A stretch of 64,000 nucleotides of DNA, taken from the NCBI RefSeq assembly GCF_023091225.1, contig NZ_JAHWXM010000002.1:124001-188000 (forward strand), read 5' to 3'. Position numbers and translations under genes: made by a program. Origin of the DNA: Microbacterium galbinum. GTDB lineage: Bacteria; Actinomycetota; Actinomycetes; Actinomycetales; Microbacteriaceae. Below the pieces are notes generated by a model. That model saw only the letters and a program-made list of their open reading frames with translations. It did no database searches and was not told the DNA's origin. Below are positions 36,816 through 53,082 of this stretch, piece by piece. Position 1 is the first letter of the stretch. Each line of letters starts with the position of its first letter.

Positions 36816-37826
36816 ATGACTGGTCTTCGATGGGGAATCCTCGCGACGGGCGGCATCGCCGGCTCGTTCGCTTCCGACCTGCGCGCCGCTGGTCTCGACC
36901 TGGTGGCCGTGGGGTCGCGTTCGCAGGAATCGGCGGATGCCTTCGCCGCCCGCTTCGACATCCCGCACGCCCACCCGTCCTACGAGGCTCTCGTCGCCGA
37001 TCCCGACGTCGACATCATCTACGTCTCCACCCCGCACCCGATGCACCACGCCAACGCGCGCCTGGCGCTCGAGGCCGGCAAGCACGTGCTCGTCGAGAAG
37101 GCCTTCACGCTGAACCAGGCCGAGGCCGCCGACCTGCAGGCCCTCGCCACCGAGCGCGGTCTGCTCGCGACCGAGGCGATGTGGACCCGCTATCTGCCGC
37201 ACATGATCCGCGCGCGTGAGATCGTCGCCTCCGGCATCCTCGGCGAGGTGCGCTCGGTGAGCGCCGACCACACGCAGCTGCTGCCCTCCGACCCCGAGCA
37301 CCGTTTGAACGCGCTCGAGCTCGGCGGGGGCGCGCTCCTCGACCTGGCGATCTACCCGATCTCGTTCGTCTGGGACATCCTCGGTGCGCCCACCAGCATC
37401 CACAGCGTCGCGCGTCTGATCGAGACCGGTGCCGACGCCGAGGTCGCGACCGTCATGACCCACGAGGGCGGCGCCGTCTCGACCACGCTCTCCTCGTCGC
37501 GCACGGCCGGCCCGAACCGCGCGACGATCCTCGGCACGAAGGCCCGCATCGAGATCGATCGCTTCTTCTGGTCGCCGTCGGTGCTGCGCGTCATCGACCC
37601 CGAGGGCACGGTGCTCGAGGAGTTCGACGGGCGTCTCGACCCCGAGGCCGGCGGCCGCGGCATGCAGTTCGAGGCTCTCGCCGCCGAACGCCTCGTGCGC
37701 GAGGGGAACCTCGCCGGCGACATCCTGCCGCTCGCCGAGTCCGTCGCGATCATGGGCACGCTCGACGAGATCCGCCGTCAGATCGGCGTCCGCTATCCCG
37801 GCGAGTCGACCGGCGAGCAGGCCTGA
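36816..37826 (+). CDS. Gfo/Idh/MocA family oxidoreductase
   Basis: 336 residues. NAD(P)-binding Rossmann domain (GILATGGIAGSFASDL) and the C-terminal Gfo/Idh sheet domain. The usual EKP motif reads EKAFTLN, as in dihydrodiol-dehydrogenase-like members. It probably oxidises or reduces a sugar or cyclitol hydroxyl; the substrate is unknown. Leaderless start. The stop is followed after 2 bp by the NYN gene, so both are one unit. Confidence 0.9.
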   Translation: MTGLRWGILATGGIAGSFASDLRAAGLDLVAVGSRSQESADAFAARFDIPHAHPSYEALVADPDVDIIYVSTPHPMHHANARLALEAGKHVLVEKAFTLNQAEAADLQALATERGLLATEAMWTRYLPHMIRAREIVASGILGEVRSVSADHTQLLPSDPEHRLNALELGGGALLDLAIYPISFVWDILGAPTSIHSVARLIETGADAEVATVMTHEGGAVSTTLSSSRTAGPNRATILGTKARIEIDRFFWSPSVLRVIDPEGTVLEEFDGRLDPEAGGRGMQFEALAAERLVREGNLAGDILPLAESVAIMGTLDEIRRQIGVRYPGESTGEQA

Positions 37827-37828
37827 GC

Positions 37829-38803
37829 ATGGCCGAGCCCACCGACGTCCGCGTCGCGGTCTACCTCGACTTCGACAACATCGTCATCTCCTGGTACGAC
37901 CGGGTGCACGGTCGCAACGCCTACGGCAAGGACCGTCAGCGCATCAGCGAGAACCCGAACGATCCCGAGGTCGCCGAGCGCCTGAGCCTCGCGATGATCG
38001 AGGTCGGCGCGATCATCGACTACGCCGCCTCCTTCGGCACGCTCGTGCTCACCCGCGCCTACGCGGACTGGTCCTCGCCCGTGAACGCGGTCTACCGCTC
38101 GCAGCTCGTCGCCCGCGCGGTCGACCTGGTGCAGCTGTTCCCGGCCGCCGCATACGCGAAGAACGGGGCAGACATCCGTCTCGCGGTGGATGCGGTCGAA
38201 GACATGTTCCGCCTGCCCGACCTCACTCACGTGGTGATCGTCGCTGGCGACAGCGACTACGTGCCGCTCGCCCAGCGCTGCAAGCGTCTCGGCCGGTACG
38301 TGATCGGCGTCGGCGTCGCCGGGTCCACGGCGAAGTCGCTGGCCGCGGCCTGCGACGAGTTCGAGGCCTACGACTCGCTCCCCGGCGTGCACCGTCCCGT
38401 CAAGGCCGCCCCGGTGGCCGAGGTCGCCGCCGCGCCCGCCGAGGCGGCCGAAGCGGAGGCCGAGCCGGCGGCTGAGGCTCCGACCGACACGGTCAAGAAG
38501 AGCACCCGCTCGCGTCGCGCCAAGTCGGCACCGGCCGCGCCGCCGCCCGAGCCCGTGATCGACCCGCAGAACGAGGCGACGCAGTTGCTCGAGCGCGCGC
38601 TGCGCTTGGGGCACGACAAGGCGGATGCCGACGAGTGGCTGCACAGCTCGGCGGTCAAGACGCACATGCGCCGCATGGATCCGTCGTTCAGCGAGAAGGG
38701 ACTCGGCTACCGGTCGTTCTCGGACTTCCTGAAGTCCCGCGACGACATCGCCGAGCTCGAAGAGACCGGGCACGAGCGCTTGGTCAGGCTGCGCGACCGC
38801 TGA
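37829..38803 (+). CDS. NYN-domain protein with C-terminal LOTUS/OST-HTH-like domain
   Basis: 324 residues. The PIN-like NYN nuclease domain occupies about 1-175, with acidic residues in VYLDFDNIV, KNGADIRLAVD and AGDSDYVPLAQR. A low-complexity Ala/Glu/Pro linker spans about 190-250 with a basic stretch (KKSTRSRRAKSA). The C-terminal domain (about 255-320) ends in LGYRSFSDFLKSRDD, typical of LOTUS/OST-HTH RNA-binding domains. It is probably an RNA-binding ribonuclease; targets unknown. The last 20 bp overlap the MFS gene tail to tail. Confidence 0.88.
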   Translation: MAEPTDVRVAVYLDFDNIVISWYDRVHGRNAYGKDRQRISENPNDPEVAERLSLAMIEVGAIIDYAASFGTLVLTRAYADWSSPVNAVYRSQLVARAVDLVQLFPAAAYAKNGADIRLAVDAVEDMFRLPDLTHVVIVAGDSDYVPLAQRCKRLGRYVIGVGVAGSTAKSLAAACDEFEAYDSLPGVHRPVKAAPVAEVAAAPAEAAEAEAEPAAEAPTDTVKKSTRSRRAKSAPAAPPPEPVIDPQNEATQLLERALRLGHDKADADEWLHSSAVKTHMRRMDPSFSEKGLGYRSFSDFLKSRDDIAELEETGHERLVRLRDR

Positions 38804-40058
38804 CCTCGTCGCCGCCCGTGTCGTGACGCCCGAGGGCACGCCACGAGAGGGCGGCCACGACGACCGTGACCGCCCCGACGACGGCGTAGGCGAGGCGCGG
38901 GTCGGTGAGCTGCGCGAGCGCCCCCACGAGCACGCCGGTCACGACGGTCGATCCCGGCAGTGCCATGGCCCAGATGCCCATGACGCGGCCGCGGATCGGC
39001 GTCGGGGTCGAGAGCATGACGAGCGCGTTGGCGCGCGCGATGAACCACATCACGATCGCCCCGACCACCGCGAGGCCGAGGAACAGCAGCGGCAGCGTGG
39101 GTGCCGCCGCCGAGAGCAGCACCGCCAGGCCCATCAGCGCCGCCAGCATCCGCACCTCGCCGCCGCGCGGCGTCGTCGGCCCGGTGGCCGAGAAGAATGC
39201 GCCGGGCAGCGCGCCCAGACCGAAGGCGACGGCCAGCAGCCCGTAGGTTCCGCCGTCGGCGCGGAAGACGTTCGCGACGATCAAGGGGATCACGACCGCG
39301 ATGTTGTACCCGGCCGCCGCGCACACGGCGAGCAGGAGCGTCTGCCGCACCGCAGGCGTGCGGGCCACGAACCGCCAGGCGCCCGTCGTCGGCGGGTCGG
39401 GCGCGGCCGATTCCTCGACCACCGGATCCGACGTCGGCCGCGACCGCGGCCGCAGCGTCAGCAGCACGATGATCGACGGCACGAACACCAGGGCGTTCAC
39501 GACGAAGCACCACGCGGCATCCGCGAAGACGAGCAGCACTCCCGCCACCGCGGGGCCCAGCACCCGCGCGCCGTTGATGATGACCTCGTTCATGCTCACC
39601 GCGCTCGTCACGCGCTCGCGCCCGACGAGGTCGAGCACCAGCAGCTGCCGCGCCGGGTTGTCGGCGGCGAACGCGAGGCCGTGCGCGAGCGAGAGCGCCA
39701 TCAGCATCCAGATCTCGAGCGCACCGCCGAAGGCGAGCGCGGCCAGCACGGCGGCCACCGCCATCTGTGCGACGGCCGTCACCAGCAGCACCGAGAGCCG
39801 CGAGTAGCGATCCACGAGCACGCCGATGAACGGGCCGAGGGCGAGCGTCGGCACCATCATGCAGGCCGTCACGGCACCGAGCGCGAGCCCATCGCCCCCG
39901 AGTTCGACCACGAGCCACGCGATCGCGATCTGCGAGGCGGCCCCGCCCGCCGCCGACAGCAGCTGCGTGATGCTCCACCGGCGGTAGTCGCGGATGCGGA
40001 GCGCGGCGAACGAGCGGGTCAGGGATTCGCGCGTGAAGCGATCGCGCCAGAAGCTCAC
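38784..40058 (-). CDS. MFS transporter, last gene of the glycoside operon
   Basis: 424 residues with about 12 helices and the motif-A-like [15 protein letters not shown]3-like. GTG 40058 overlaps the stop of the TIM-barrel gene (GTGA), so it is translationally coupled to the catabolic operon. It may export a product, aglycone or toxic intermediate (inference); an import role is also possible. Confidence 0.85.
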
Positions 40059-41062
40059 TGGTTGCTGAATGCGGCGTCGAACGGGGCCGTCGGCTTCGGC
40101 CACAGCAGCGACCGCACGTACTCGACGGCCTGTGCTGCGCCGTGCAGGCGATCCATGCCGGCGTCCTCCCACTCGATCGAGATGGGGCCCGCGTATCCGA
40201 TGGCGTCGAGCGCGCGGAACGAATCCTCCCAGGGCACGTCACCGTGCCCGGTCGAGACGAAGTCCCAGCCACGGCGCGGGTCGCCCCAGGGCAGGTGCGA
40301 ACCGAGCACGCCCGCGCGTCCGTTGTGCGGGCGCAGCCGGGTGTCCTTGCAGTCGACGTGGTAGATGCGGTCGGCGAAGTCGACGATGAAACCCACCGGA
40401 TCGATGTTCTGCCACATCATGTGCGAGGGGTCCCAGTTGAAGCCGAAGGCCTCCCGGTGGTCGATCGCTTCGAGGGCCCGCACCGACGACCAGTAGTCGT
40501 AGGCGATCTCGCTCGGGTGCACCTCGTGCGCGAACCGTACCCCCTCGGCGTCGAAGACATCGAGGATCGGGTTCCAGCGTGCCGCGAAGTCGTCGAATCC
40601 TCCGTCGATCACCGACTCGGGCACCGGCGGGAACATCGCCACGTAGGGCCAGATCGACGACCCGGTGAACCCGACCACGGTGTCGACGCCGAGCTTGCGG
40701 GCCACGCGCGCGGCGCGCTTCATGTCGTCGGCGGCACGCTGACGCACGCCTTCGGCCTCGCCGTCGCCCCACACGTAGTCGCGGAGGATCGCCTGGTGGC
40801 GGAAGTCGATCGGCGCATCGCACACCGCTTGACCGGCGAGGTGGTTCGAGATCGCGAAGACCTGCAGGCCGTGGCGGTCGAGGATCTCGAGGCGGGAGGC
40901 CGCGTAGGCGTCGTCCTCGTCCGCGCGCTGCAGGTCGAGGTGGTCTCCGGATGCCGCGATCTCCAACCCGTCGTAGCCCCACGAGGCGGCGAGCCGGGCC
41001 ACCTCCTCGAACGGCAGATCGGCCCACTGGCCGGTGAACAGGGTGACGGGATGCGTGCTCAT
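40055..41062 (-). CDS. Xylose-isomerase-like TIM-barrel sugar isomerase/epimerase (TIM1)
   Basis: 335 residues, AP_endonuc_2 superfamily. Probable metal ligands in order: Glu of AHEVHPSE, Asp of WDPSHMMW, His of YHVDCKD and Glu of ISIEWED. This is the complete E-D-H-E set of ketose 3-epimerase-like enzymes. It likely acts on a sugar or keto-sugar released from an imported glycoside. ATG 41062 is in an ATGA overlap with TIM2. Proteins of this kind form the catalytic subunit of C-glycoside deglycosylases in other bacteria, but the small partner subunit was not found. Confidence 0.87.
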
Positions 41063-42033
41063 CGATGTGCCTCCGTTGGCGCTGCGGGGTAGTTCTCGGC
41101 GATCCACGCCCAGCTCGTCTTCGCGCTCTCGAACGGCTCCATGCTGGGCTTGTCGACCTCGATCAGAACCGTACCGCCGAAATCGTCCGGCAGCTCGGCG
41201 AGCGCCTCGCGGATCGGCACGTCGCCGAGCCCGGGCTCGAGGAAGAAGCGCTCGGCCATGACGTCGAAGTAGGGCGTCTTCTTCTCGCGCGCGGTCTTCG
41301 CGAGCGCGAGGTCCATGTCCTTCACGTGCAGGTCCGAGATGCGGTCGGCGTGCGCGGCGACCCAGGCCACGACATCCGTGCCCGTCCACGCCAGGTGACC
41401 GATGTCGGGCCCGGCGGCGAGCAGCGACGGCGAGATCGCGTCGAGCACGTGGTCGTACTCGGCCTCGGTCTCGATCCACGTGCCGACGTGGTTGTGCAGC
41501 GCGGGCGTCACGCCCTCGGCCGTCAGCACCTCTGCCGCCTCGCCGATGACGTTCACGACCCGATCGAGCCGCGCGGCGTCGAAGGCGTGGCCGGAGGCCG
41601 CCGCCTCGTCGATGCGCGGCCGCCCGGGGGCCATGTCGGCCGCGAGGAACACGCGGTCGAGACCGAGGTACAGCGACTCCTCGGCACGCCGACGGATGCC
41701 GTCGAACCAGCGGAAGTGCGCCTCGTCGTCACCCGTGTGATCGCGACCGAACTCCTCGGGGAGGCCGATGTGCACGTAGCCCGGTGTGACCGTCAGCCCC
41801 GAATCCGCGACGACGCGGGCGTACGCCTGCAGGGTCTGGGTCGGGAGCACCTCGAGCATGACCGACGAGAACCCGGCGTCGCGCACCTGACCGAGCACGA
41901 TCGGCTGGCGGGCGAGGAAGCTCGGGCGGTCGAACTCCCATCCGACGCTGCCCGGGTCGCCCGTCGAGTCGCCGAGCGAGACGGTGATCCACTGGAGCGT
42001 GTTGAGCGAGAAGTGGTCCCTGGTGAGTGTCAT
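41059..42033 (-). CDS. IolE-like TIM-barrel protein (TIM2)
   Basis: 324 residues, paralogue of TIM3 next to it. Shared motifs: [22 protein letters not shown] (resembling the HHHMGTVVET region of inosose dehydratase IolE), [18 protein letters not shown] and [12 protein letters not shown]. It probably dehydrates or isomerises a keto-sugar. GGAAGGGAA RBS upstream of ATG 42033. It ends in an ATGA overlap with TIM1. Confidence 0.85.
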
Positions 42034-42054
42034 CGTCGTTCCCTTCCTCGACCG

Positions 42055-42999
42055 TCAGGCCGTGATCTCTGCGACCCAGCGGGCCGTGTGGTGGGCACTG
42101 GCGACCGGGTCCATGCTGGCGCGATCGACCTCGATGATCACCCAGCCGTCCCAGCCCTCGGGCAGCTGCTCGAGCGTGCCCCGCAGGTCGACCTGACCGA
42201 GCCCGGGCTCGAGGTAGAGTCCGAGGTCGGTCGCCCGCTCGTAGCTCAGTCCCTCTTCGCGGCTGCGCCGCGCGAGCTCGAGATCGAGGTCCTTCAGGTG
42301 CAGATCCTGCACGCGGTCCGCCCAGCGCGCGATGGTGTCCTTGGCGCTGATGCCCGCCCACTCCAGGTGACCGATGTCGAAGGCCGCGCCGAGGCGCTGC
42401 GCGTCGATCGCGTTCAGCACGTGCTCGTACTCGTGCTGCGTCTCGATCCAGGTGCCGACGTGGTTGTGCAGCCCGGGCTTCACGCCCTCGGCGTTCAGCA
42501 CGTCGACGGCCTCGTCGATCAGGTCGGTGAGCTCGTCGAGGCGATCCTGCGAGAAGTCCGCGCCGATGGCCGGCTTCTGCCAGCGGATCGCCGTCTGGTC
42601 GACCTCGGCGGCGAGGAAGATCGTGCCGATCCCGAAGTAGTTCGATTCCTCGGCCTTGCGACGCACCGCATCGAACCAGTGGATGCGCTCGAAGGTGCCG
42701 CGCTCGAGCCGTCCGCCGTGATCGCTCGCCAGCGGAACCTGCACGTACCCCGGGGCGAGGGCCAGACCCGACTCCCGCACCATCGCCGCGTAGTTCTTCA
42801 GGGTCTGCGTGTCGAGCACCTCCATCATCGTGGCCCCGAACCCGGCCTGTCGGATCTCGCGGAGCACATCGGGGTACTCGGCGACGAACGCGGGGTCGGC
42901 GAAGCGCCACAGACTCGCGCTCTCGAGGTCTTCCGGGTCCTCCTTCACGTTGATCCACTGGATCGCGTTGAGGGCGAACTTCAGGTCCTTCACGGCCAT
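42055..42999 (-). CDS. IolE-like TIM-barrel protein (TIM3)
   Basis: 314 residues, clear paralogue of TIM2. Motifs: [43 protein letters not shown] and VIIEVDRASMDP. The metal-site residues are conserved in both copies, so both are probably active, possibly on successive or different substrates. AAAGGA RBS before ATG 42999. It lies between the permease gene and TIM2. Confidence 0.85.
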   Translation of the reverse strand: MAVKDLKFALNAIQWINVKEDPEDLESASLWRFADPAFVAEYPDVLREIRQAGFGATMMEVLDTQTLKNYAAMVRESGLALAPGYVQVPLASDHGGRLERGTFERIHWFDAVRRKAEESNYFGIGTIFLAAEVDQTAIRWQKPAIGADFSQDRLDELTDLIDEAVDVLNAEGVKPGLHNHVGTWIETQHEYEHVLNAIDAQRLGAAFDIGHLEWAGISAKDTIARWADRVQDLHLKDLDLELARRSREEGLSYERATDLGLYLEPGLGQVDLRGTLEQLPEGWDGWVIIEVDRASMDPVASAHHTARWVAEITA

Positions 43000-43047
43000 G
43001 GGAGGGGTCCTTTCGAGGGGGTCGCTGCAGGGGTCACGACGCGGCGG

Positions 43048-43875
43048 TCACTTCAGACCGGTGGCGGCGACGCCCTGGATGAAGTACTTCTGCAGGAAGA
43101 GGAACAGGATGAGGATCGGCAGCAGCACGACCATCGCACCGGCCAGCAGCAGACCGAAGGAGATGGTGTTGGATGCCTGCGACGCGACCGAGAGTCCGAC
43201 CGGCGCGGTGTAGGTGTCCTGCGACTGGGCGACGACGAGCGGCCAGAGGAAGTTGTTCCACGAGGTGAGGAACGACAGGATCGCGACGGTCGCGAGGCCG
43301 GGACCGGTGAGCGGCAGGAAGACCCGGAAGAAGATCCGGCCCTCCCCCGCGCCGTCCAGACGCGCGGCCTCCATGAGCTCGAACGGCACGCCGTGCGCGA
43401 ACTGGCGCATGATGAACACGCACAGCGGCAGCACGAGCACGGGCAGGATGATCGCGATGAGCGAGTTCACCAGGCCCATCTGCACGACGATCACGAACTG
43501 CGGCACGAAGAGCGCCACGTACGGCACGATCATCGATGCGATCACGAGCGGGAACACGAGGCCGCGTCCGCGGAAGCGCAGCTTCGCGAGCGCATACCCG
43601 GCCATCGCGCTGAAGAGCACGTTGCCCACGATCGCGACGCTCGAGACCACGATGCTGTTGAGCATGTAGGTGCCGAAGCCGCGGTCGGCGAACAGCTGGA
43701 TGTAGTTCTGGATCTGGAACGACTCCGGGAACCACGCCCCCGGGTTGCCGAGGAACTCGGCCTGCGTCTTGAACGATCCGAAGAACACCCAGACGAAGGG
43801 CAGGAGCATGAAGACGGTGATGACGGTGAGCGCCGTGTAGTTCAGCGCTTGACGCGTCGGAGACAGAGTTTTCAA
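43048..43875 (-). CDS. ABC sugar transporter permease, CUT1 MalG type
   Basis: 275 residues, six helices. The EAA coupling loop reads ELMEAARLDGAGEGRIFFRVFLPL, the CUT1 signature. The start is TTG 43875, overlapping the upstream stop as TTGA (43872-43875); no ATG or GTG is suitably placed before the first helix. Partner of the MalF-type permease. No ATPase gene is in the operon, as usual for actinobacterial CUT1 systems that share a multitask ATPase (MsiK). Confidence 0.9.
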   Translation of the reverse strand: MKTLSPTRQALNYTALTVITVFMLLPFVWVFFGSFKTQAEFLGNPGAWFPESFQIQNYIQLFADRGFGTYMLNSIVVSSVAIVGNVLFSAMAGYALAKLRFRGRGLVFPLVIASMIVPYVALFVPQFVIVVQMGLVNSLIAIILPVLVLPLCVFIMRQFAHGVPFELMEAARLDGAGEGRIFFRVFLPLTGPGLATVAILSFLTSWNNFLWPLVVAQSQDTYTAPVGLSVASQASNTISFGLLLAGAMVVLLPILILFLFLQKYFIQGVAATGLK

Positions 43876-44840
43876 TGTTTCGGCCTCAGGATTCTGAACT
43901 GGACGATCGCGACGATTCCGACGAGCACGAGCAGCAGCACCGATCCCGCCATCGAGGCGGAGACGTTGCCGAACCCGAACTGCTCGTACACCCAGACGGC
44001 GATCGACTTGGTGGATCCGAGCGGGCCGCCCTTGGTGAGCAGGTACGGCTCTTCGAAGATGTTGAGGAACGAGACCGTCTGCAGCACCGTGACGAGCAGG
44101 GTCGTCGGGCGCAGCAGCGGCAGCGTGATCGACCAGAGCCGGCGCCAGGCACCCGCCCCGTCGGTGGCCGCGGCCTCGTAGATCTCCTCCGGCACGGCCT
44201 GGAGGCCGGCGAGGAAGAGGATCATGCAGGTTCCGGTCGTGCGCCACACGCCCATCATCACGACGGTGGTGATGGCCCAGCCCGGCTCGCCGAGCCAGTT
44301 CGGCGCTCCGAGTCCCAGATCCGCGAGGGTCGTGTTCACCGGCCCGGTGATCGAGAACGCGTACTGCCAGATCACGGCGGCGGCGACGATGTTGGTGATC
44401 ACCGGCACGTAGGCCGCGGCCCGGAAGAAGTTGCGCAGGCGACGGATGCCGTTGTTGAGCATGAGCGCCAGGGCGAGGCCCAGGGCCATGCTGATCGGCA
44501 CGCAGATCACCACGAACATCACGGTGTTCAGGAACGCGCTCTGGAATCCGGGGTTGTTGATGATGTCGATGAAGCCCTGGAAGCCCGTGAAGTTCACGTT
44601 GAACGGATCGCGGATGTCGCGGGCGCTGATGTCGGTCAGGCTCGCCCCGATCGCGAGCACGGCGGGGATGCCGGTGAAGAGCAGGAAGATCGCGAGGAAC
44701 GGGGCGAGGAACAGCCACGCGGTGGTGGCTTCGGCCCGCGATCCCTCGTGCACCTTCCTGATCCGTCGAGGACCGGTGCCCCGGGGGCGTCGCGAGGACG
44801 CCCCCGAGGTGACCATGGTGCGGGTCGCAGTGGTGGACAT
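43872..44840 (-). CDS. ABC sugar transporter permease, CUT1 MalF type
   Basis: 322 residues. A basic cytosolic N-terminus (about 40 residues) precedes six helices; the EAA loop reads EIYEAAATDGAGAWRRLWSITLPLL. It starts at ATG 44840, 8 nt after the lipoprotein stop with a weak RBS, and overlaps MalG at its end. Confidence 0.9.
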   Translation of the reverse strand: MSTTATRTMVTSGASSRRPRGTGPRRIRKVHEGSRAEATTAWLFLAPFLAIFLLFTGIPAVLAIGASLTDISARDIRDPFNVNFTGFQGFIDIINNPGFQSAFLNTVMFVVICVPISMALGLALALMLNNGIRRLRNFFRAAAYVPVITNIVAAAVIWQYAFSITGPVNTTLADLGLGAPNWLGEPGWAITTVVMMGVWRTTGTCMILFLAGLQAVPEEIYEAAATDGAGAWRRLWSITLPLLRPTTLLVTVLQTVSFLNIFEEPYLLTKGGPLGSTKSIAVWVYEQFGFGNVSASMAGSVLLLVLVGIVAIVQFRILRPKH

Positions 44841-44848
44841 GATCGGGG

Positions 44849-46162
44849 TCAGTTACCCGTCCCGATGGACTCGGCCTGCGCCTGAGCCTCGTCGAGAGCG
44901 TCCTGCGCCGACACTCCGCCGCGGACGACCTTCTCCATCTGCTCACCGATCACGGTGCCGACCTGGCTCCAGGTCGAGACCTTCGGCAGGGTGACGCCGG
45001 TCTCGAGACCGGCCTCGACCGTCTGCAGCAGACGGTCCCCGGCGAGCGCCGGGTCCTCCCACGCCGACTTCACGGCCGGCATGTTCTTGAAGATCTCGAA
45101 CCACTTGACCTGGCTCTCGGGCTCCGACATGAAGCGGGCGAACTTCCACGCCGCGTCCTTGTTCTCGGAGTCGGAGGGCACGAACCAGCTGCCGCCGCCG
45201 ACCGTGGTCGCGGCGTCGCCGTCGGGGCCGACGGGCATCGTGGCGAGCGAGAGGTGCTCGTCCGCCCAGCCCTCGCCGTTGGCATCGTCGAACCAGCCGA
45301 CGAACCAGGGGCCGCCGTCGATGATCGCGGCGTTCTTACCGGTGGTCGACCACGAGACCGTGTCGAGGAAGGCGGGGCCGTCGGGCGAGGCCAGGCCGTC
45401 GGCCATCAGGCCCGCCCAGTACTCGAGCGCCTCGACGTTCTCGGGCGAGTTGATCGTCCACGTCGAGAGGTCGTCGGAGATGAACCCGCCGCCGTTCTGC
45501 TTCGCGAAGGTCAGCAGCTGACGGGCGGTGTACGAGTCGTAGGCCGCGTAGAGCGCGAGCGGCCACTCGACACCGGAGGCCTTGAGGTCCTCACCGAAGG
45601 TGCGCAGACTGTCCCAGTCGGTGGGGGCCTCGGCACCCGCGGCCTCGGCCAGGTCGGTGCGGTAGATGACCATGTCGGCGTAGGCGTACCACGGCACGCC
45701 GTAGGCCACGTCGTCGTAGACCGAGTTGTCCCAGATGACCTCGAAGAAGTCGTCCGGGTCGACGAGGCCGTCGGGCACGGCGTCGAATCCTCCGGTCGAG
45801 ATCAGCGACGACTGCGTCTCGGTGAACGCGTAGATCAGGTCGGGCACGGTGCCCGCGGTGATCGCCGCGGTCATCTTCGACGCGAACTCCGCTTCCGGGA
45901 TCTGCGTCATGTTGATCTCGACGTCGGGGTTGTCCTTCGTGAACTCCTCGAACATCTGGGGCAGTTCGGCGCCGTCGGCGCCCTGCGTCCAGATCTCGAG
46001 GGTGCCGGTGGCCGGCTCGTCGTCGACCTTCGTGGAAGCGCCGGCGTCGCCGCCGCCGCTGTCGCCGCTGCGGCCGCAGCCGGTGAGCAGCAGGGCGCCG
46101 GACGTGACCAGCGCGATTCCGAGCATCGTCGCCCGGCGTCGCGAAGTGGTGTGGAAGTGCAT
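44849..46162 (-). CDS. ABC sugar transporter substrate-binding lipoprotein, SBP family 1
   Basis: 437 residues. Signal peptide with lipobox LTGC at about residue 28, then the extracellular solute-binding family 1 fold (LEIWTQGADGAELPQMFEEFTKDNPDVEINM). Binds a mono-, oligosaccharide or glycoside. Two in-frame ATGs are possible; AAGGAG (46172-46177) abuts the first ATG but lies 9 nt before ATG 46162, which is therefore chosen. Confidence 0.9.
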   Translation of the reverse strand: MHFHTTSRRRATMLGIALVTSGALLLTGCGRSGDSGGGDAGASTKVDDEPATGTLEIWTQGADGAELPQMFEEFTKDNPDVEINMTQIPEAEFASKMTAAITAGTVPDLIYAFTETQSSLISTGGFDAVPDGLVDPDDFFEVIWDNSVYDDVAYGVPWYAYADMVIYRTDLAEAAGAEAPTDWDSLRTFGEDLKASGVEWPLALYAAYDSYTARQLLTFAKQNGGGFISDDLSTWTINSPENVEALEYWAGLMADGLASPDGPAFLDTVSWSTTGKNAAIIDGGPWFVGWFDDANGEGWADEHLSLATMPVGPDGDAATTVGGGSWFVPSDSENKDAAWKFARFMSEPESQVKWFEIFKNMPAVKSAWEDPALAGDRLLQTVEAGLETGVTLPKVSTWSQVGTVIGEQMEKVVRGGVSAQDALDEAQAQAESIGTGN

Positions 46163-46199
46163 CGCGATCATCTCCTTGGTGGGTAGGGGTACTGCAGGG

Positions 46200-47693
46200 T
46201 CAGAGGGAAGCGGCGACCGCGCGGGCGATGCGCACCGAGAGCGTGGCTCCGGTGAGCGTCGAGTTGCACGTCAGCGCGGTCGGGATCACGCCGTTGCCGG
46301 CGAGATACAGGTTGTCGAAGCCCCAGACACGACCATCCGTGTCCACGACGCTCGTGCCGTCGTCATCGGGGCCCATCCGGACGGTGCCGGTGTAGTGCAG
46401 GGATGCCCCGGGGGGCTGCACCTCGCGGTCCTCGGTCGGGAAGTCCCCGATCACGGCCGCTGCCGTCCGCTGCACCTCCTGGGTGCGGCGGATCTCCTCG
46501 AGGTCGGCGTCGGAGTACGAGAAGTGCACGGTCATGTGCGGCATGCCGAGGGCATCCGTCAGCTCGTCGGAGAACTCGATGCGGTTCTCGGCGCGGATCT
46601 CGGTGGCGCAGTACCATCCGACGCTGAGCTTGTGGCGTCCCTCGAACTCGCGCTCCATGAGCTGGCCGTGCGCGGGGCGGGCGGCGCCGATCGACGGGCT
46701 CCAGAACGAGCCGATGAACGGCTCCCCCGCGGGCGGCTGGATGATGTCGGCATCCGTCAGGCCGAAGCGGGAGGCGTCGATGTCGACCTCGCCGTCGATC
46801 GTCGCGTGCTCGTTGAGGTAGGCGCCGAGGGCGGTGGGGCGGATGCCGGAGGCCCAGAGCAGCTGCGGGGTGCGCAACGCGTCGCCCGCGATCAGCACCT
46901 GCGCGCCGTGGGCGGTCGCTTCCTCGCCGGTGACGAGGTCGCGGTAGGAGAGTCCGGTGACGCGCGTTCCGTCGTGCTCGATGCGGTGCACCAGCACGCC
47001 GCTGCGGAGCGTGACGTTCGCCTCGCTTCCGTCGAAGACGAACGGCGCGATGTCCCGCGGGCCGGTGCGGGCGAAGGGCTCGCCGACGCGCGGCACGCCG
47101 CCCATCGGCATGTACCCGAACTCGCGGGCGGGATCGGGGCTCGGCACGGCCTCGCGGAGAGCGGCGAACAGCGGCTGCTCGAACGGGTTCGGCACGCCCG
47201 CGACGAGGGGCCCGACGTAGGTGCGCAGCAGACCGCGCGCCGTCTCGAGGTCGGCGTCCCATTCGGCGCGCGGCAGGAAGGCGGGGATCTCCTCGGCATA
47301 GGGCCAGGGGGTCGCGGCGGTCCAGTGCACGCCCATCCCGCCGATGTTCCAGGCGACGGACGCCCCCGGGAAGGCGGCGAAGTTGTGCCCGAAGAACGCC
47401 GCCGGGAACACGCCGGACGACTCGGGATCCCACCCGTCGCCCTCGATCGCGCTCATCGAGACCGCATCCTTGACGTACTCGATCTGGCGCGCGCGGCGCA
47501 TGAGGTCGTCGTACGAGGCGTTCATCGCGCTCTCATCGGCCTCGACGAGGTGCTCGCCCGGCACCGAGGTGATCTCGCGACCGGCCTCGAGCACCAGGAT
47601 CGTCGCCTCGGGCACCCGCTGGTGCACCTGCTGCGCGATGATCGCGCCGTTCGGACCGGTGCCGACGATCACGAGGTCGAAGTTGTCAGTCAT
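46200..47693 (-). CDS. FAD-dependent pyranose-oxidase-like sugar/glycoside oxidoreductase (GMC superfamily)
   Basis: 497 residues. FAD-binding GTGPNG with EAG at the end of beta-2, the NIGGMGVHWTAATPWP substrate-loop region, SLHYTGTVRMG (catalytic His) and TCNSTLTGATLSVRIA (catalytic Asn). The His/Asn pair resembles pyranose 2-oxidase and CarA-type C-glycoside 3-oxidases known from Microbacterium/Arthrobacter rather than His/His glucose oxidase. No signal peptide, so it is cytosolic. Predicted to oxidise C2 or C3 of an imported glycoside. AAGGAA RBS before ATG 47693; a longer in-frame reading begins outside the conserved fold. Confidence 0.88.
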   Translation of the reverse strand: MTDNFDLVIVGTGPNGAIIAQQVHQRVPEATILVLEAGREITSVPGEHLVEADESAMNASYDDLMRRARQIEYVKDAVSMSAIEGDGWDPESSGVFPAAFFGHNFAAFPGASVAWNIGGMGVHWTAATPWPYAEEIPAFLPRAEWDADLETARGLLRTYVGPLVAGVPNPFEQPLFAALREAVPSPDPAREFGYMPMGGVPRVGEPFARTGPRDIAPFVFDGSEANVTLRSGVLVHRIEHDGTRVTGLSYRDLVTGEEATAHGAQVLIAGDALRTPQLLWASGIRPTALGAYLNEHATIDGEVDIDASRFGLTDADIIQPPAGEPFIGSFWSPSIGAARPAHGQLMEREFEGRHKLSVGWYCATEIRAENRIEFSDELTDALGMPHMTVHFSYSDADLEEIRRTQEVQRTAAAVIGDFPTEDREVQPPGASLHYTGTVRMGPDDDGTSVVDTDGRVWGFDNLYLAGNGVIPTALTCNSTLTGATLSVRIARAVAASL

Positions 47694-47743
47694 CTGTGTT
47701 CCTTCTGTTCTGCGTTGAATCAGGAGAGGTGCGTGCACCGGGG

Positions 47744-48850
47744 TCAGAGTGCGGGGGTGTCGACCCAGCGCTGCTCGTCGGCGGCGATCAGCACGGCCTC
47801 GGTGAGTCGAGCGGCGCGCACCCCGTCGTCGAAGGTGGGCAGGCCGTCGGGTGACTCACCGCGGATCGCCGCGTAGGCGTCGGCGACGAAGCCGTTGAAG
47901 GCGTCCTGATAGCCCTGCGCGTGACCGGCGGGAACGGTCGAGAACCGGGCGACTCCGGGGTGAGCGGTCTGCGGGTCGCGGAAGAGGTGCCTGCTGCCCT
48001 CGCGCTCGCCGATCCACAGCTCCTCCGGGCGCTCCTGGTCGAAGCGGATGCTCGCCTGCGTACCGTGGAGTTCGAGGGTGAGGGAGTTCTTGCGGCCGGC
48101 GGCCATCTGCGAGATCAGCAGCGTGCCGATCGCGCCCGACTCCATCTCGACGAGGATCGACACGGCGTCCTCGTTGGTGACGGCGCGCCCGGCGCGCTCG
48201 GCGTAGACGCGGCGCGTGCGGGCGGTGAGGCGCACGATCCGCTCCCCCGCGACGAACTCGAGCAGGTCGCACAGGTGCGAGCCGATGTCGGCGAAGGCGC
48301 GGGAGGGTCCGCCGTCGGCGGAGGTGACGCGCCAGTCGTCGTCGCCGGGCAGGAGCATCCAGTCCTGCAGGTATCCGCAGTCCACCGTGAGGAGATCTCC
48401 GATCTCACCGGCGGCGACGCGGGCGCGGGCCTCGCGCACCATCGGGTGGTACCGGTAGACGAAGGGCACCGCGGCGACCACACCGCGCTCGGCGGCTGCG
48501 GCGGCGAGCGCGCGGGCGTCGTCGACGTGCGTGGCGAGCGGCTTCTCGCAGATCACGTGCACGCCGGCCTCGATCACCGCGAGGGCGAAGGCGGCGTGGG
48601 TGGCGTTGGGGGTGCACACGTGCACCACGTCCACGTCCTGGGTGAGCAGTTCGGCGAGATCCTCGGCGGCGCGTTCGATCCCGAGGTCCTGAGCGGCGGT
48701 GAGGGCCCGCTCCCGCGAGGAGCTCGCGAGCACTGCGGTGGTGGCACCGGCGGCGCGTGCTGCGCGGCTGTGCACCTGGGCCATGAATCCTCCGCCGAGG
48801 AATCCGGATCGGATCGTCCCGACGCCGGTAGCTGTGACGTCCGTTGTCAT
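47744..48850 (-). CDS. Gfo/Idh/MocA family dehydrogenase, first gene of glycoside operon
   Basis: 368 residues. Rossmann motif FLGGGFMAQVHSRA, the EKP motif in CEKPLATH and DIGSHLCDLLEFVAG in the catalytic domain. Probably interconverts a keto-sugar and its alcohol with NAD(P)H, complementing the FAD oxidase downstream. ATG 48850 follows CAGAAT by 7 nt; leader and RBS are absent or minimal. Divergent from the ROK gene across 115 bp. Confidence 0.9.
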   Translation of the reverse strand: MTTDVTATGVGTIRSGFLGGGFMAQVHSRAARAAGATTAVLASSSRERALTAAQDLGIERAAEDLAELLTQDVDVVHVCTPNATHAAFALAVIEAGVHVICEKPLATHVDDARALAAAAAERGVVAAVPFVYRYHPMVREARARVAAGEIGDLLTVDCGYLQDWMLLPGDDDWRVTSADGGPSRAFADIGSHLCDLLEFVAGERIVRLTARTRRVYAERAGRAVTNEDAVSILVEMESGAIGTLLISQMAAGRKNSLTLELHGTQASIRFDQERPEELWIGEREGSRHLFRDPQTAHPGVARFSTVPAGHAQGYQDAFNGFVADAYAAIRGESPDGLPTFDDGVRAARLTEAVLIAADEQRWVDTPAL

Positions 48851-48857
48851 GCCGATG

Positions 48858-48863
48858 ATTCTG
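48858..48863 (-). promoter_or_regulatory. Possible -10 box CAGAAT of the glycoside operon
   Basis: CAGAAT, 7 nt, ATG 48850 on the minus strand. The -35 region would fall on the CTTTTG/CAAAAG inverted repeat. Confidence 0.4.
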
Positions 48864-48878
48864 ACACGAGTCCTCCTA

Positions 48879-48902
48879 CTTTTGCTAGATCTTCGTCAAA
48901 AG
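48879..48902. promoter_or_regulatory. ROK operator candidate, CTTTTG-N12-CAAAAG
   Basis: Perfect 6-bp inverted repeat separated by 12 nt in the AT-rich divergent intergenic region between the dehydrogenase operon and the ROK gene; an inner ATCTT/AAGAT repeat (48889-48893 and 48900-48904) partly overlaps. Good position for repression of the minus-strand operon. Confidence 0.5.
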
Positions 48903-48965
48903 ATTTTTCTCAATCGTCAGATCTCCTCCGCTGAGCAGTGGAAGTCCTGTGATTTACTGACCCCT

Positions 48966-50162
48966 ATGAGTGATGCGGAACGCCACCTCTCGAGCGCCTC
49001 CACGGGCGCGGGCGACATCTTCCAGCTCCTGCTGGACGGTCAGGCGCGCACCAAGGCCGACCTCGTGCACCTCACCGGCCTCGCCCGTTCCACCGTGTCG
49101 GCGCGCGTCGATGCCCTCCTCTCCGCCGGACTGCTCGTCGCCGCGGGCGAGGCCGCGTCCACCGGCGGGCGACCCCCGTCGCGCGTCGCCTTCAACCCGC
49201 GCGCGGGCCTCGTGCTGGCCGTCGACCTCGGCGCCTCACACGCCACGATCGCCATCGCCGATCTCGGCGGCAGGATCCTCGGCTCCACCACGCATCCGCT
49301 CGACATCGCCGGCGGGCCCGAGCCGGTGCTGGATCGGATGCTCGTCGAGGCCGAGGCCCTTCTCTCCGACCTCGAGACGCCCACGAGCGCGCTCGTCGGC
49401 GTCGGGATCGGCGTGCCCGGCCCGGTCGAGCACTCGACCGGCCGCCCCTACAACCCGCCGATCATGCCGGGATGGGACCGCTTCGACATCCCCGGCTACG
49501 TGCAGCGCACGTTCGACGTGCCGGTGCTCGTCGACAACGACGTGAACGTGCTCGCCCTCGGCGAGCAGACCACCAGCTTCCCCGACACCACCGATCTCAT
49601 CTTCGTCAAGGTCGCCACCGGCATCGGTGCCGGCATCATCGCGGGCGGCCAGCTGCAGCGCGGCGCGCAGGGCTCGGCCGGCGACATGGGGCACGTCCGC
49701 GTGCCGCACTCCGCCGAGTCCACGCACGCCGCCGATGAGGAGCGCGACCTCGAGGACCTCGCCAGCGGCAGCGCGATCGCCGCGTCACTGCGCGCGCAGG
49801 GGATCGACGCCGAGACCAGCCGAGACGTGACCGAACTGGTGCGGGCGGGGAACACCGCGGCGATCGAAGCGTTGCGCCAGGCCGGGCGCGACGTCGGCGA
49901 GGTGCTCGCCACGGTCGTGAACCTGCTCAACCCCTCGATCGTCGTGCTCGGCGGCAGCATCGCACGAGCGGGCGAGCACCTGCTGGCCGGTGTCCGCGAG
50001 GTCGTCTACCGCCGATCGATCCCCCTCGCCACGCAGCATCTCGCCATCGTGCAGTCCCCGACCGGGGAGCGCGCCGCGGTGCTGGGCGCGGCGATCATGG
50101 TCGCCCGCGAGGTGCTCTCCCCCGCCAACGTCGAACGATACGTGTCGGTGAGAACCCGATGA
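48966..50162 (+). CDS. ROK family transcriptional regulator
   Basis: 398 residues. An N-terminal winged HTH (about 20-65; TKADLVHLTGLARSTVSARVDALLSAGLL) is followed by a ROK kinase-like domain with the DLGASHATIAIAD phosphate loop and GIGVPGPVE. The usual CPCG-type zinc cysteines are absent: the corresponding region reads GDMGHVRVPHSAESTH. Expected to repress the divergent glycoside operon and respond to a sugar. No Shine-Dalgarno before ATG 48966; TTTACT lies 7 nt upstream. Confidence 0.9.
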   Translation: MSDAERHLSSASTGAGDIFQLLLDGQARTKADLVHLTGLARSTVSARVDALLSAGLLVAAGEAASTGGRPPSRVAFNPRAGLVLAVDLGASHATIAIADLGGRILGSTTHPLDIAGGPEPVLDRMLVEAEALLSDLETPTSALVGVGIGVPGPVEHSTGRPYNPPIMPGWDRFDIPGYVQRTFDVPVLVDNDVNVLALGEQTTSFPDTTDLIFVKVATGIGAGIIAGGQLQRGAQGSAGDMGHVRVPHSAESTHAADEERDLEDLASGSAIAASLRAQGIDAETSRDVTELVRAGNTAAIEALRQAGRDVGEVLATVVNLLNPSIVVLGGSIARAGEHLLAGVREVVYRRSIPLATQHLAIVQSPTGERAAVLGAAIMVAREVLSPANVERYVSVRTR

Positions 50163-50767
50163 TTTCGCCCTATGAGCGCGCGCTCGGAGATCGCATCTCC
50201 GAGCTCCACCCGAAGACCGCCTGGTACTTCCGCACGATCCCCGATGGTCAGGTCGGCATCGGTACCGGGGTCTTCACCCGAGCCGGGTCCCCGCATCGCT
50301 GGCTGTGGCCGGTCTTCCGCATCGCCGAGTCCCTGGGCGTCGCGTTCGCCGGGTGGGAGCGCGACGTGCCCTTCCGCATCGAGAACCGCACCGTCGGCGG
50401 CACGGCCGTCGCGGTGCGGTACTTCGACCTCCCCGGCCGCACCTGGGTCATGCCCGACACGGTCGCCCTCGGCGAGAATCGCATCCTCCGCAACGAGATC
50501 GGCCCTCACCGCACCGTCGTGACGACCTTCGACCTCGACGTGCAGGACGGCGCGGTCGTGCTCACCATCCGACGGGTCGGGATGCGGTTCGGGCGGGTGC
50601 GCATCGCCGCTCCGCGCTTTCTGCGCCCGCGCATCGGCCTCGTCGAGCGCTGGGACGACGGCCGGCAGCAGCACCACGTGAACATGACCATCGACGCGCC
50701 ACTCCTCGGTCGCGTCTACGAGTACACGGGCTACTTCGACTACGTGATCGAGAGCGAGACCCCGTGA
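50159..50767 (+). CDS. DUF4166 domain protein
   Basis: 202 residues, no signal peptide. Contains RISELHPKTAWYF near the start and RTWVMPDTVAL... ERWDDGRQQHHVNM typical of DUF4166, whose function is unknown. The start ATG 50159 overlaps the ROK stop (ATGA) and the stop overlaps the next start (GTGA), so it is translated in a regulator-DUF4166-epimerase unit. Confidence 0.8.
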   Translation: MISPYERALGDRISELHPKTAWYFRTIPDGQVGIGTGVFTRAGSPHRWLWPVFRIAESLGVAFAGWERDVPFRIENRTVGGTAVAVRYFDLPGRTWVMPDTVALGENRILRNEIGPHRTVVTTFDLDVQDGAVVLTIRRVGMRFGRVRIAAPRFLRPRIGLVERWDDGRQQHHVNMTIDAPLLGRVYEYTGYFDYVIESETP

Positions 50768-51780
50768 CCGATGCCACGCCCCTCCCCGCGGGCCCCGTCG
50801 TCATCGGCGGCTCCTCGGGATTCATGGGCAGGCACCTCGTCCCGCGCCTGCGGTCCGCCGGACGCGAGGTCATCACGATCTCGCGATCCGGGGCCGACAT
50901 CTCCTGGGGCGACCAGCGCGCGATCGATCGCGCCGTCGACGGCGCGTCGCTCGTGATCGGTTTGGCCGGCAAGAGCGTGAACTGCCGATACACCCCCGAG
51001 AACCGCGCCCAGATCTTCCGGTCGCGGCTCGACACCACCGCGTCGCTGAGCTCGGCCATCGCCGACGCGACGGACCCGCCACCCCTGTGGATCAACTCCT
51101 CGACGGCGACGATCTACCGCCATGCCGAGGATCGACCGATGACCGAGTCGTCCGGGGATCTCGGCGCCGGTTTCTCCGTGGACGTGGCGAAGGCCTGGGA
51201 GCGCGCTCTGTTCGCCGACGATCTGCCGCACACCCGACGGGTCGCACTGCGCAGCGCCATCGTGCTCGGTCACGGCGGTGTGCTCGGTCCGCTCGAACGC
51301 CTGGCGAGACTCGGGCTGGGCGGCGCACAGCACGACGGACGCTGGCCCGTCAGCCGGGCGCGCCGCACCGCCGGAACCGGGCACTTCCCGGGAGCACTCC
51401 ACGGCACGCAGAGGTTCAGCTGGGTGCACGTCGACGACGTGGCCCGGATCATCGACTTCCTCGAGGTCACCCCCTCGATCGAGGGCCCGGTGAACGCGGC
51501 CTCCCCGAACCCCTCCGACAACGCCGGGTTCATGGCCACCGTGCGCCGAGTGCTCGGCGTCGGCTTCGGGCCCCCGCTCCCCCGATGGATGCTCGAACTC
51601 GGCGCCATCGGCATCCGCACCGAGACCGAACTGGTCCTGAAGAGCCGCTGGGTCATCCCCGAGAAGCTCACGACCGCCGGGTTCGCCTTCGCCTATCCGG
51701 AGCTCGAGGGCGCGGTCCGTGAATCCTTCTCGCGCACGTCGCGCAGCGCCGGCTCCAGCTCGGGGAAGGCGAAGGCGTAG
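50764..51780 (+). CDS. SDR39U1-type NAD(P)-binding epimerase (TIGR01777 family)
   Basis: 338 residues. N-terminal Rossmann GGSSGFMGRHLV, VIGLAGKSVNCRY and the SSTATIYRH / FSWVHVDD motifs of the family; DUF1731-like C-terminus. Function of the family is uncertain. GTG 50764 is fixed by the GTGA overlap with DUF4166. Its last 88 bp overlap antisense the end of a homologous gene on the other strand; the tail SAGSSSGKAKA is read from the complement of the partner's FAFPELE segment. Confidence 0.85.
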   Translation: MTDATPLPAGPVVIGGSSGFMGRHLVPRLRSAGREVITISRSGADISWGDQRAIDRAVDGASLVIGLAGKSVNCRYTPENRAQIFRSRLDTTASLSSAIADATDPPPLWINSSTATIYRHAEDRPMTESSGDLGAGFSVDVAKAWERALFADDLPHTRRVALRSAIVLGHGGVLGPLERLARLGLGGAQHDGRWPVSRARRTAGTGHFPGALHGTQRFSWVHVDDVARIIDFLEVTPSIEGPVNAASPNPSDNAGFMATVRRVLGVGFGPPLPRWMLELGAIGIRTETELVLKSRWVIPEKLTTAGFAFAYPELEGAVRESFSRTSRSAGSSSGKAKA

Positions 51781-52694
51781 CCTGCGTCCTCGAGCACACC
51801 GGGAGCGATCCACCGACTGTTGAGCACCAGATCCGGCTCGGCGCGCAGCACCCACATCGCCGGCTCGAGCATGAACCGCCACGAGGGCAGCCCGATCGGC
51901 ATCCCGACGACACGACGCAGCGCCCGCATCAGTCCGCGGTTGTCCACGACGCCCGGCGCCGACATGTTCACCGGACCCGAGATGCGCGCGTCGTCGCGGA
52001 TGAACCGCACGGCTCCCACGAGGTCGTCGATGTGGATCCAGCTGAACCGCTGATGCCCGCGGGACCGCCGTCCCAGCGGCTTCCGCGGCTCGGTCGGGTG
52101 CGGGCCGATGCCGCGATAGCGCCGGTGCGGGAACCACCAGCCGTCGAACTGCGGCCCGCCGACGCCGAAGCGAGCGAGGCGGAAGAGCAGTGCCGGCGCG
52201 GGACCGTCGCCGACCACGAAGGTGATCCGCAGCGCCACGCGCCTCGTCGACGGCAGATCGCCCCGGAACAGCTCGGCTTCCCAGGCCCGGGTCACGTCCG
52301 GCAGGAAGCCGGTGTCGCGCTCGGTGTCGGCCTCGGTCTGAGCGCGGTCGAGCGCGTAGCGATAGACCGCCGCGCTGGATGCGTTCATCCAGACGGCGGG
52401 CGGATGCTCGGCTCCCGCGATGGCGTCGTGGAGCGCGCGGGTCGTGTCGATGCGCGACTGGAGGATCTCCTCGCGATTGCGATCGGTGAACCGCGCGTTG
52501 ATGCTCTTGCCCGCGAGACCGATGACCAGGTCCGCGCCGTCGACGACGCGCCGGATCGAGGCGGGGTCGTCCCAGCGGGCGTCCGGGCCGTGGCGGCCGA
52601 TCACGCTCACCGCGTATCCGTCGGCCTCGAGCGCCTGGGTCAGCGCCGTGCCGACGAACCCGCTGCCGCCGCCGATGACGGCCCGTTTCGCCAT
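51693..52694 (-). CDS. SDR39U1-type NAD(P)-binding epimerase, convergent paralogue
   Basis: 333 residues. Motifs parallel the plus-strand homologue: GGGSGFVGTALTQAL, VIGLAGKSINARF, NASSAAVYRY, FSWIHIDDLVGAV and a DUF1731-like end. ATG 52694 lies 1 bp after the stop of the PLDc_N gene. The tail TAPSSSG is encoded by the complement of the partner's AYPELEG segment, so each gene ends inside the other's conserved C-terminal motif. Confidence 0.87.
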   Translation of the reverse strand: MAKRAVIGGGSGFVGTALTQALEADGYAVSVIGRHGPDARWDDPASIRRVVDGADLVIGLAGKSINARFTDRNREEILQSRIDTTRALHDAIAGAEHPPAVWMNASSAAVYRYALDRAQTEADTERDTGFLPDVTRAWEAELFRGDLPSTRRVALRITFVVGDGPAPALLFRLARFGVGGPQFDGWWFPHRRYRGIGPHPTEPRKPLGRRSRGHQRFSWIHIDDLVGAVRFIRDDARISGPVNMSAPGVVDNRGLMRALRRVVGMPIGLPSWRFMLEPAMWVLRAEPDLVLNSRWIAPGVLEDAGYAFAFPELEPALRDVREKDSRTAPSSSG

Positions 52695-52695
52695 G

Positions 52696-53082
52696 TCAGA
52701 GGCCTTCCCCGCCGGATTCGCCGGCATCTCGCTTGCGCTTCTCGATCTCCTCGCGCAGGCGCCATTCCTCGATCTCGCGGTCGAGGTCGGCGATCTGCTG
52801 CTCGGTCGTGCGGATGTCGCGGGGCGGCGCCGGGGGTGCCTCGGTGCCCGTCGACGGGGCCGTGCGAGGAGCCCTCCGCAGACGTGGGATCGCGATCCCC
52901 GCGTCGCCGTAATCCCGGCCGAGGCCGAACCAGAGGAGCGCTCCGAGGAGCGGCAGCAGGATCACCACGATCAGCCAGACGAGGCGGGGCAGGAACCGCA
53001 CCTGCGAGTCCTCGCGCCGCACGATGTCGACCACCGCGCCGATCGTCAGCGCGAGAGTGATGATCGTGAACAGGAACGGCAT
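52696..53082 (-). CDS. Small membrane protein with PLDc_N-like domain
   Basis: 128 residues. Two hydrophobic helices (about 1-22 and 33-53) with RREDSQVRFLPRLVWLIVVILLPLLG between, the phospholipase D nuclease N-terminal pattern. A charged coiled-coil-like tail follows (QQIADLDREIEEWRLREEIEKRKRD). Function unknown. The start ATG 53082 lies 6 nt after TACTCT. A longer in-frame reading begins 19 codons upstream but is interrupted by that promoter. Confidence 0.75.
   Translation of the reverse strand: MPFLFTIITLALTIGAVVDIVRREDSQVRFLPRLVWLIVVILLPLLGALLWFGLGRDYGDAGIAIPRLRRAPRTAPSTGTEAPPAPPRDIRTTEQQIADLDREIEEWRLREEIEKRKRDAGESGGEGL

Follow-up and report, generated by a model that had tools for sequence, protein, structure and literature searches.

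The window analysed here, 64,000 nt from contig 2 of a Microbacterium galbinum genome of 3.57 Mb, carries a nine-gene operon on the minus strand (38784-48850), which lies opposite a divergent ROK-family regulator gene on the plus strand (48966-50162, ATG start at 48966; PF00480, 172 bits) and is proposed to serve the catabolism of an imported glycoside. From coordinate 48850 downwards, the operon encodes a Gfo/Idh/MocA oxidoreductase and proposed keto-sugar reductase (Gfo/Idh, 47744-48850; PF22725/PF01408), a flavin adenine dinucleotide (FAD)-dependent glycoside oxidase of the pyranose oxidase/C-glycoside oxidase (POx/CGOx) sequence space (46200-47693, with a reading frame open to 47738), a CUT1 solute-binding protein (SBP, 44849-46171; PF01547, 116 bits), a MalF-like permease (43872-44840; PF00528) and a MalG-like permease (43048-43875; PF00528, TTG start, 4-nt overlap). 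These are followed by three TIM-barrel proteins, namely TIM3, which is IolE/LgdB1-like and a proposed 3-keto-glycoside beta-eliminase (42055-42999; PF01261), its paralogue TIM2 (41059-42033; 46% identity), and TIM1, a proposed 2-hydroxy-3-keto-glucal hydratase (40055-41062), and by an accessory MFS_3-type transporter (38784-40058; PF05977, 138 bits), for which the GTG start is a choice. The intergenic gaps range from -4 to +50 nt (in succession 50, 28, 8, -4, 48, 21, -4 and -4 nt). All genes of this run had been named in an original prediction made from the sequence, and a Pfam scan of the ten operon and regulator proteins agreed with each class assigned there; the range then given (40055-50162) begins at the TIM1 stop codon and leaves out the MFS gene that had been counted. 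As had also been stated, no glycoside hydrolase is present among the ten scanned proteins. No ABC ATPase gene is found within the operon; a general ATPase shared among such CUT1 transporters is usual.

An oxidase of this sequence space was found, at E 1e-20 or better, in 119 of 366 genomes of the genus, and 22 of the 119, including the window's own, hold an orthologue (67-100% identity, the next best relative having 47%), which in two cases is split between frames; one more orthologue comes from a related genus (G063). Twenty-two orthologous loci besides the window were fetched and read. Gfo/Idh adjoins the oxidase in every one of them, the locus L079 being a 4.4 kb contig that ends there, and the remaining 21 all possess the SBP, MalF, MalG, at least one IolE-like TIM barrel and TIM1 in the window's order, together with the MFS gene in 13 and a second, TIM2-type IolE-like copy in 11. 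Because this gene order recurs in 22 orthologous loci, as far as their contigs reach, the operon is not a product of chance. Conservation is highest for TIM1 (89-99% identity), while the SBP (59-100%) and TIM3 are more variable, a pattern that would be consistent with one shared sugar intermediate but differing glycosides. In a sample of the phylum, 2 of 296 genomes, the window's own included, matched at E 1e-40, which is too few to be informative. The orthologous FAD gene is frame-split in L087 and L088 (genomes G399 and G387); in G387 several further operon genes are split as well, which may be an assembly error.

Among solved structures, the FAD enzyme matches 8qve (deposited as a pyranose oxidase; E 7.9e-80), MtCarA (7dve; E 3.5e-67) and PsG3Ox (7qf8; E 1e-57) over nearly its whole length, with choline oxidase and other GMC enzymes scoring far below. 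On these matches it is a member of the POx/CGOx sequence space and stands outside the unrelated GMC oxidases, such as the choline and alcohol oxidases, as the original prediction had supposed. Its residues H448 and N492 align with H440 and N484 of PsG3Ox, for which alanine variants are reported as inactive (PMC10646112), and both catalytic residues are conserved throughout the alignment, in 114 of 114 oxidase relatives of at least 480 aa, a set in which some genomes are present twice under two locus ids.

The characterised two-subunit C-deglycosylases include a beta subunit, and the original prediction had noted that a DUF6379-like partner of this kind was missing from the operon. PF19906 (Pfam name CGDB), the family of this subunit, which we take to be the former DUF6379, matched nothing in the 23 operon-bearing genomes, the window's own among them, and did match the controls G362 and G045. 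It occurs in 79 of 361 genomes of the genus; treating the genomes as independent, although they are not, would give a chance of 0.004 for zero overlap with the operon. Given the absent beta subunit, a variant is likely, as had been suggested.

What accompanies these oxidases instead is the TIM3 family. At E 1e-30 it was found in 39 of 361 genus genomes, 38 of which also have an oxidase (hypergeometric value 1e-19, with 118 of the 361 counted as oxidase-bearing; the value is descriptive only). In 36 genomes the two genes share a contig and lie no more than 4.3 kb apart; G445 and G381 have them on different short contigs, and the oxidase contig of G381 ends inside a TIM3-like gene, while G465 holds a TIM3 relative of 33% identity and no oxidase. 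When named genomes were scanned with the TIM3 alignment, 46 loci emerged, some of them from genomes already in the genus set; these loci span Microbacterium, Rathayibacter, Leifsonia, Agromyces, Agreia, Frondihabitans, Subtercola, Promicromonospora, Myceligenerans, Antribacter, Amycolatopsis and Saccharopolyspora, among others. An oxidase is present in 43 of the 46, the exceptions being L161 (a short contig), L190 (Streptomyces) and L191 (a Propionibacteriaceae bin), and a CGDB-like gene in none, as judged with a home-made CGDB profile of six sequences. Some loci follow the window's arrangement (A) and others the order SBP-MalF-MalG-oxidase-TIM3 (B); in a third arrangement (C) the oxidase lies opposite an SBP-MalF-MalG-TIM3 run, and Gfo/Idh is often present as well. 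The Amycolatopsis and Saccharopolyspora loci were found to have no more of the gene set than ROK, Gfo/Idh, the oxidase and TIM3.

At loci carrying PF19906 the permeases are different ones (30-40% identity to the window's), a TIM1 relative is often present (mostly 66-71%), and TIM3 is absent. In 58 further loci (L090-L147), 29 had CGDB, 21 a TIM3/TIM2 relative, 8 neither and none both; four of these loci lack an oxidase, and many were fetched for one partner gene or the other, so that the sampling was not random. Both partner types occur in seven genus genomes, and in the six that were fetched (G170, G302, G186, G501, G284 and G239) each partner lies at its own locus with its own oxidase, the TIM3 relative of G239 being only 32-38% identical. 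Seven oxidases had neither PF19906 nor a TIM3 relative in the stretch read (L090, L093, L097, L098, L102, L105 and L146), and a further partner type may lie behind them. In the Rathayibacter locus L104 (14194-18926), genes for an alpha-L-rhamnosidase and a GH3 enzyme are found 4-9 kb downstream of the oxidase-TIM3 pair, which may fit flavonoid O-glycosides or may be due to chance.

The same division was found among the oxidases themselves. A quick maximum-likelihood tree computed from 90 oxidases placed every one of the 28 with a CGDB neighbour on one side, and 54 with a TIM3 neighbour plus 8 others on the opposite side, with 100% support in the Shimodaira-Hasegawa-like approximate likelihood ratio test (SH-aLRT); the 8 include L079, the truncated orthologue, and the program warns that long branches meet at the split. 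In a tree of 104 rows, which adds the references and ten further relatives, MtCarA, PsG3Ox and 8qve are on the CGDB side and the window's oxidase is opposite; the branch that parts MtCarA, PsG3Ox and the 28 PF19906-neighbour oxidases from it has 100% SH-aLRT in this quick tree. According to PMC10807413, clade III is marked by the motif GVHW, and clade IV by (G/A)AHW together with an ASPVPLADD-type loop. The window's oxidase has GVHW and not the clade IV motif; as a candidate for clade III it has the motif, but the published clade III loop is absent. Its substrate-loop segment has 16 residues, compared with 16-23 in oxidases near TIM3 and 25-29 in those near PF19906, and the loop NPPFQL of MPOx (clade II) was not found among the 120 oxidase relatives listed. 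The CarA-type (clade IV) identity that had been suggested for the FAD enzyme is rejected on the basis of the trees, the missing CarA substrate loop and the GVHW motif.

TIM3, whose predicted structure has a predicted local distance difference test (pLDDT) score of 94.6, had IolE (3cny) as the best match of its profile in the PDB, with AtOGE (8bvk) matched only at E 0.69. No protein named as a C-deglycosylase is among the 17 PDB matches of the profile, and neither the C-deglycosylases nor AtOGE are among the best 50 fold matches listed, which is no evidence against kinship. The residues H178, H180, D208, H234 and E290 are invariant in TIM3, and this His-x-His/Asp/His/Glu set in a PF01261 barrel follows the order of the metal and catalytic residues described for AtOGE (PMC10628242), as it does in IolE. 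Against the IolE equivalog TIGR04379, TIM3 and TIM2 score 105 and 79 bits, below the cut-off of 290 bits. The TIM3 profile also matches the gene in the LgdB1 position in 4 of 4 levoglucosan loci; the literature also names the uncharacterised groups LgdB3 and LgdB4, and LgdB3 is annotated as inosose dehydratase (PMC10066097). The TIM barrels are thus not plainly C-deglycosylase alpha subunits, TIM2 and TIM3 being IolE/LgdB1-like and TIM1 hydratase-like. Two relatives of TIM3 stand in other surroundings: that of Streptomyces sp. NP160 (L190, 10001-10918; 60% identity) lies near an aldo/keto reductase gene with no oxidase in the locus, and in the Propionibacteriaceae bin (L191, 10001-14436) TIM3 and Gfo/Idh stand in a row with a gene resembling pyrimidine nucleoside phosphorylase and with TIM1, no FAD oxidase is present in the locus, and the enzymes may serve a nucleoside-related purpose there.

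TIM1 matches the hydratase AtHYD (8ro4) at E 1.7e-35 over residues 18-318 and, much more closely, 2zds (SCO6571; E 3.1e-154), the title of which gives no function. By homology it qualifies as a candidate 2-hydroxy-3-keto-glucal hydratase. As a specific marker of the pathway TIM1 was rejected, since relatives of it are present in 12 of 19 oxidase-free genomes of the genus. In G155, G397 and G164, TIM1 relatives (about 72% identity) directly adjoin levoglucosan-dehydrogenase-like Gfo/Idh genes, which suggests that the presumed hydratase of the TIM1 type is used more widely. The best NCBIfam model of the window's Gfo/Idh is levoglucosan dehydrogenase, at 189 of the 650 bits needed; this cut-off is passed by none of 119 genus genomes and by 4 of 149 genomes of the order, which form the LgdB1 comparison set. 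A levoglucosan operon was rejected on this score, and a levoglucosan dehydrogenase beside TIM3, the mark of LgdB1, was likewise not found. A second Gfo/Idh-like gene (31% identity) lies just past the operon (36816-37826, plus strand), and a similar gene recurs past most of the orthologous loci.

Gene content, conservation, co-location, kinship and active-site residues are what these loci show; the enzymatic steps, the substrate and the transport direction are all inferred from them as follows. The CUT1 transporter would, judging by its family, import a glycoside, the sugar of which would be oxidised by the FAD enzyme, likeliest at C3 and with O2 as acceptor (as for CarA, PsG3Ox and MPOx). TIM3, together with TIM2 where present, would then release the aglycone by metal-dependent beta-elimination in the absence of a beta subunit, leaving a 2-hydroxy-3-keto-glycal. 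TIM1, modelled on AtHYD, would hydrate this to 3-keto-glucose, and Gfo/Idh, modelled on LgdC, would reduce 3-keto-glucose to glucose, a finish for which the Agrobacterium and levoglucosan pathways provide the model (PMC10628242, PMC7676230). That the operon is a dedicated catabolic unit for an imported glycoside, proceeding through oxidation, elimination, hydration and reduction, is given a probability of roughly 0.55, and the keto-glycoside logic of the original prediction fits the neighbouring genes. The likeliest substrates of a single-subunit eliminase beside a glycoside oxidase would be 3-keto-O-glycosides, because AtOGE, an Mn2+-dependent enzyme, is reported to act on 3-keto-phlorizin but not on 3-keto-C-glucosides (PMC10628242), and because the isolated alpha subunit of PuCGE is described as showing no activity on C-glycosides and a low residual activity on O-glycosides (PMC13273386). 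Since no beta subunit is present, C-glycosides are less likely than these. Another Microbacterium enzyme, MPOx, which may or may not be close to the window's oxidase, is reported to prefer the O-glycoside phlorizin over the C-glycoside aspalathin (PMC11673046).

Several observations weigh against this pathway. The nearest solved relative of TIM3, by sequence and by fold, is IolE, a dehydratase with the same active-site residues, and the match of its profile to AtOGE is not significant. TIM3 relatives occur without an oxidase in G465, L190 and L191, TIM1 relatives are found in oxidase-free genomes, and arrangements B and C have no TIM1 in the locus. In addition, published clade III oxidases and their ancestors act on C-glycosides, for example puerarin and homoorientin (PMC10807413).

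Foremost among the alternatives, TIM3 and TIM2 could be keto-sugar or inosose dehydratases, with the FAD enzyme making a keto-sugar or keto-cyclitol (perhaps at C2), from which TIM3 removes water of the ring with no aglycone involved. The kinship with IolE speaks for it, but TIM3 and TIM2 stay far under the equivalog cut-off, the fixed partner of TIM3 is a glycoside oxidase (38 of 39 genus genomes), characterised relatives of this oxidase are reported to handle free sugars poorly (PMC11673046), and the TIM3 profile also matches the LgdB1-position genes, which are probably beta-eliminases of a glycosidic C-O bond; we therefore consider it unlikely. The C-deglycosylation of the original prediction, in which TIM3, alone or with TIM2 as partner, would cleave oxidised C-glycosides without the known beta subunit, draws on the GVHW motif that the window shares with the clade III oxidases acting on puerarin and homoorientin. 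It is improbable in view of the absence of TIM2 from 10 of 21 orthologous loci, which makes it no obligate partner, and of the reported lack of C-glycoside activity in the lone PuCGE alpha subunit and in AtOGE, which likewise has no beta subunit. Least probable is an anhydrosugar, nucleoside-like or oligosaccharide pathway akin to levoglucosan use, in which a compact sugar derivative would be oxidised by Gfo/Idh or the FAD enzyme and then opened by the TIM barrels. This scheme is supported by the nearest NCBIfam model of Gfo/Idh and by the nucleoside phosphorylase in L191 but opposed by the 189-bit score and by the preference for aryl glycosides reported for the studied oxidases of this class (PMC11673046).

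The proposed elimination pathway can be compared with four known systems. The Agrobacterium tumefaciens GlycDH-AtOGE-AtHYD-Gfo operon (PMC10628242) has, as described there, a flavin oxidoreductase, a beta-less eliminase TIM barrel, a hydratase TIM barrel and a Gfo/Idh protein, and has the four-step logic in common with the window, where TIM1 is homologous to AtHYD; TIM3 and AtOGE have their active-site residues in the same order but no significant sequence match. Unlike the window's oxidase, GlycDH is a dehydrogenase with about 20% identity to CarA, PsG3Ox and ScPOx (PMC10628242), and the CUT1 transporter and ROK protein are particular to the window. The CarA/CarBC and PsG3Ox C-deglycosylation clusters (PMC8563793, PMC10646112, PMC12724307) resemble it in that an FAD oxidase from this sequence space occurs with permeases and Gfo/Idh, frequently also with a TIM1 relative nearby. 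They differ in their alpha/beta C-deglycosylases (PF19906), in having different permeases and in the loop and motif of clade IV, a clade to which the window's oxidase does not belong. The levoglucosan pathway LgdA-LgdB1-LgdB2-LgdC (PMC7676230, PMC10066097) likewise proceeds through oxidation, elimination, hydration and reduction, but starts with the NAD-dependent LgdA rather than a flavin oxidase. IolE is identical to TIM3 in the active-site positions; TIM3 differs in its tie to a glycoside oxidase, and no other inositol gene is present among the ten operon proteins.

The intergenic region between ROK and Gfo/Idh contains the palindrome CTTTTG-N12-CAAAAG (48879-48902), which is the conserved block in 21 aligned sequences, with both arms exact in 15 and a single left-arm base changed in the other 6. 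It was observed once in the window (0.00 expected, none in 100 shuffles), and a genome-wide search for the exact pattern gave this site alone. The ROK protein probably uses it as its operator and would act there on this operon as its sole target. A promoter scan found 0 (0.5 expected) and a terminator scan 2 (2.1 expected). Beyond the ROK gene (50700-52727), two similar sugar-epimerase-like reading frames were seen by eye, convergent and with overlapping 3' ends, the plus-strand one ending at 51780 and the minus-strand one spanning 51693-52727.

The logic of the pathway is already known, and it is the pairing of the oxidase with an IolE-like TIM barrel that is apparently new: the literature on actinobacterial glycoside oxidases, as sampled, mentions only partners of the C-deglycosylase type, and a search, incomplete in coverage and with subscription journals mostly outside it, found no publication linking a glycoside oxidase with an IolE-like partner. 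We tentatively suggest that TIM3 represents a further, undescribed class of 3-keto-glycoside beta-eliminases from the IolE/LgdB1 branch of the xylose-isomerase fold, separate from the two-subunit C-deglycosylases and from AtOGE and the standard partner of one large half of the actinobacterial glycoside oxidases, and that the cleaving enzyme, more than the oxidase, may decide between O- and C-glycoside use. If the partner split holds, substrate class would become predictable from gene neighbourhood, many glycoside oxidases without a nearby C-deglycosylase would be explained, and TIM3 would be a single-subunit candidate eliminase for deglycosylation. This soil bacterium would thus have a dedicated gene set that probably dismantles sugar conjugates with a cleaving enzyme unlike those of its best-studied relatives.

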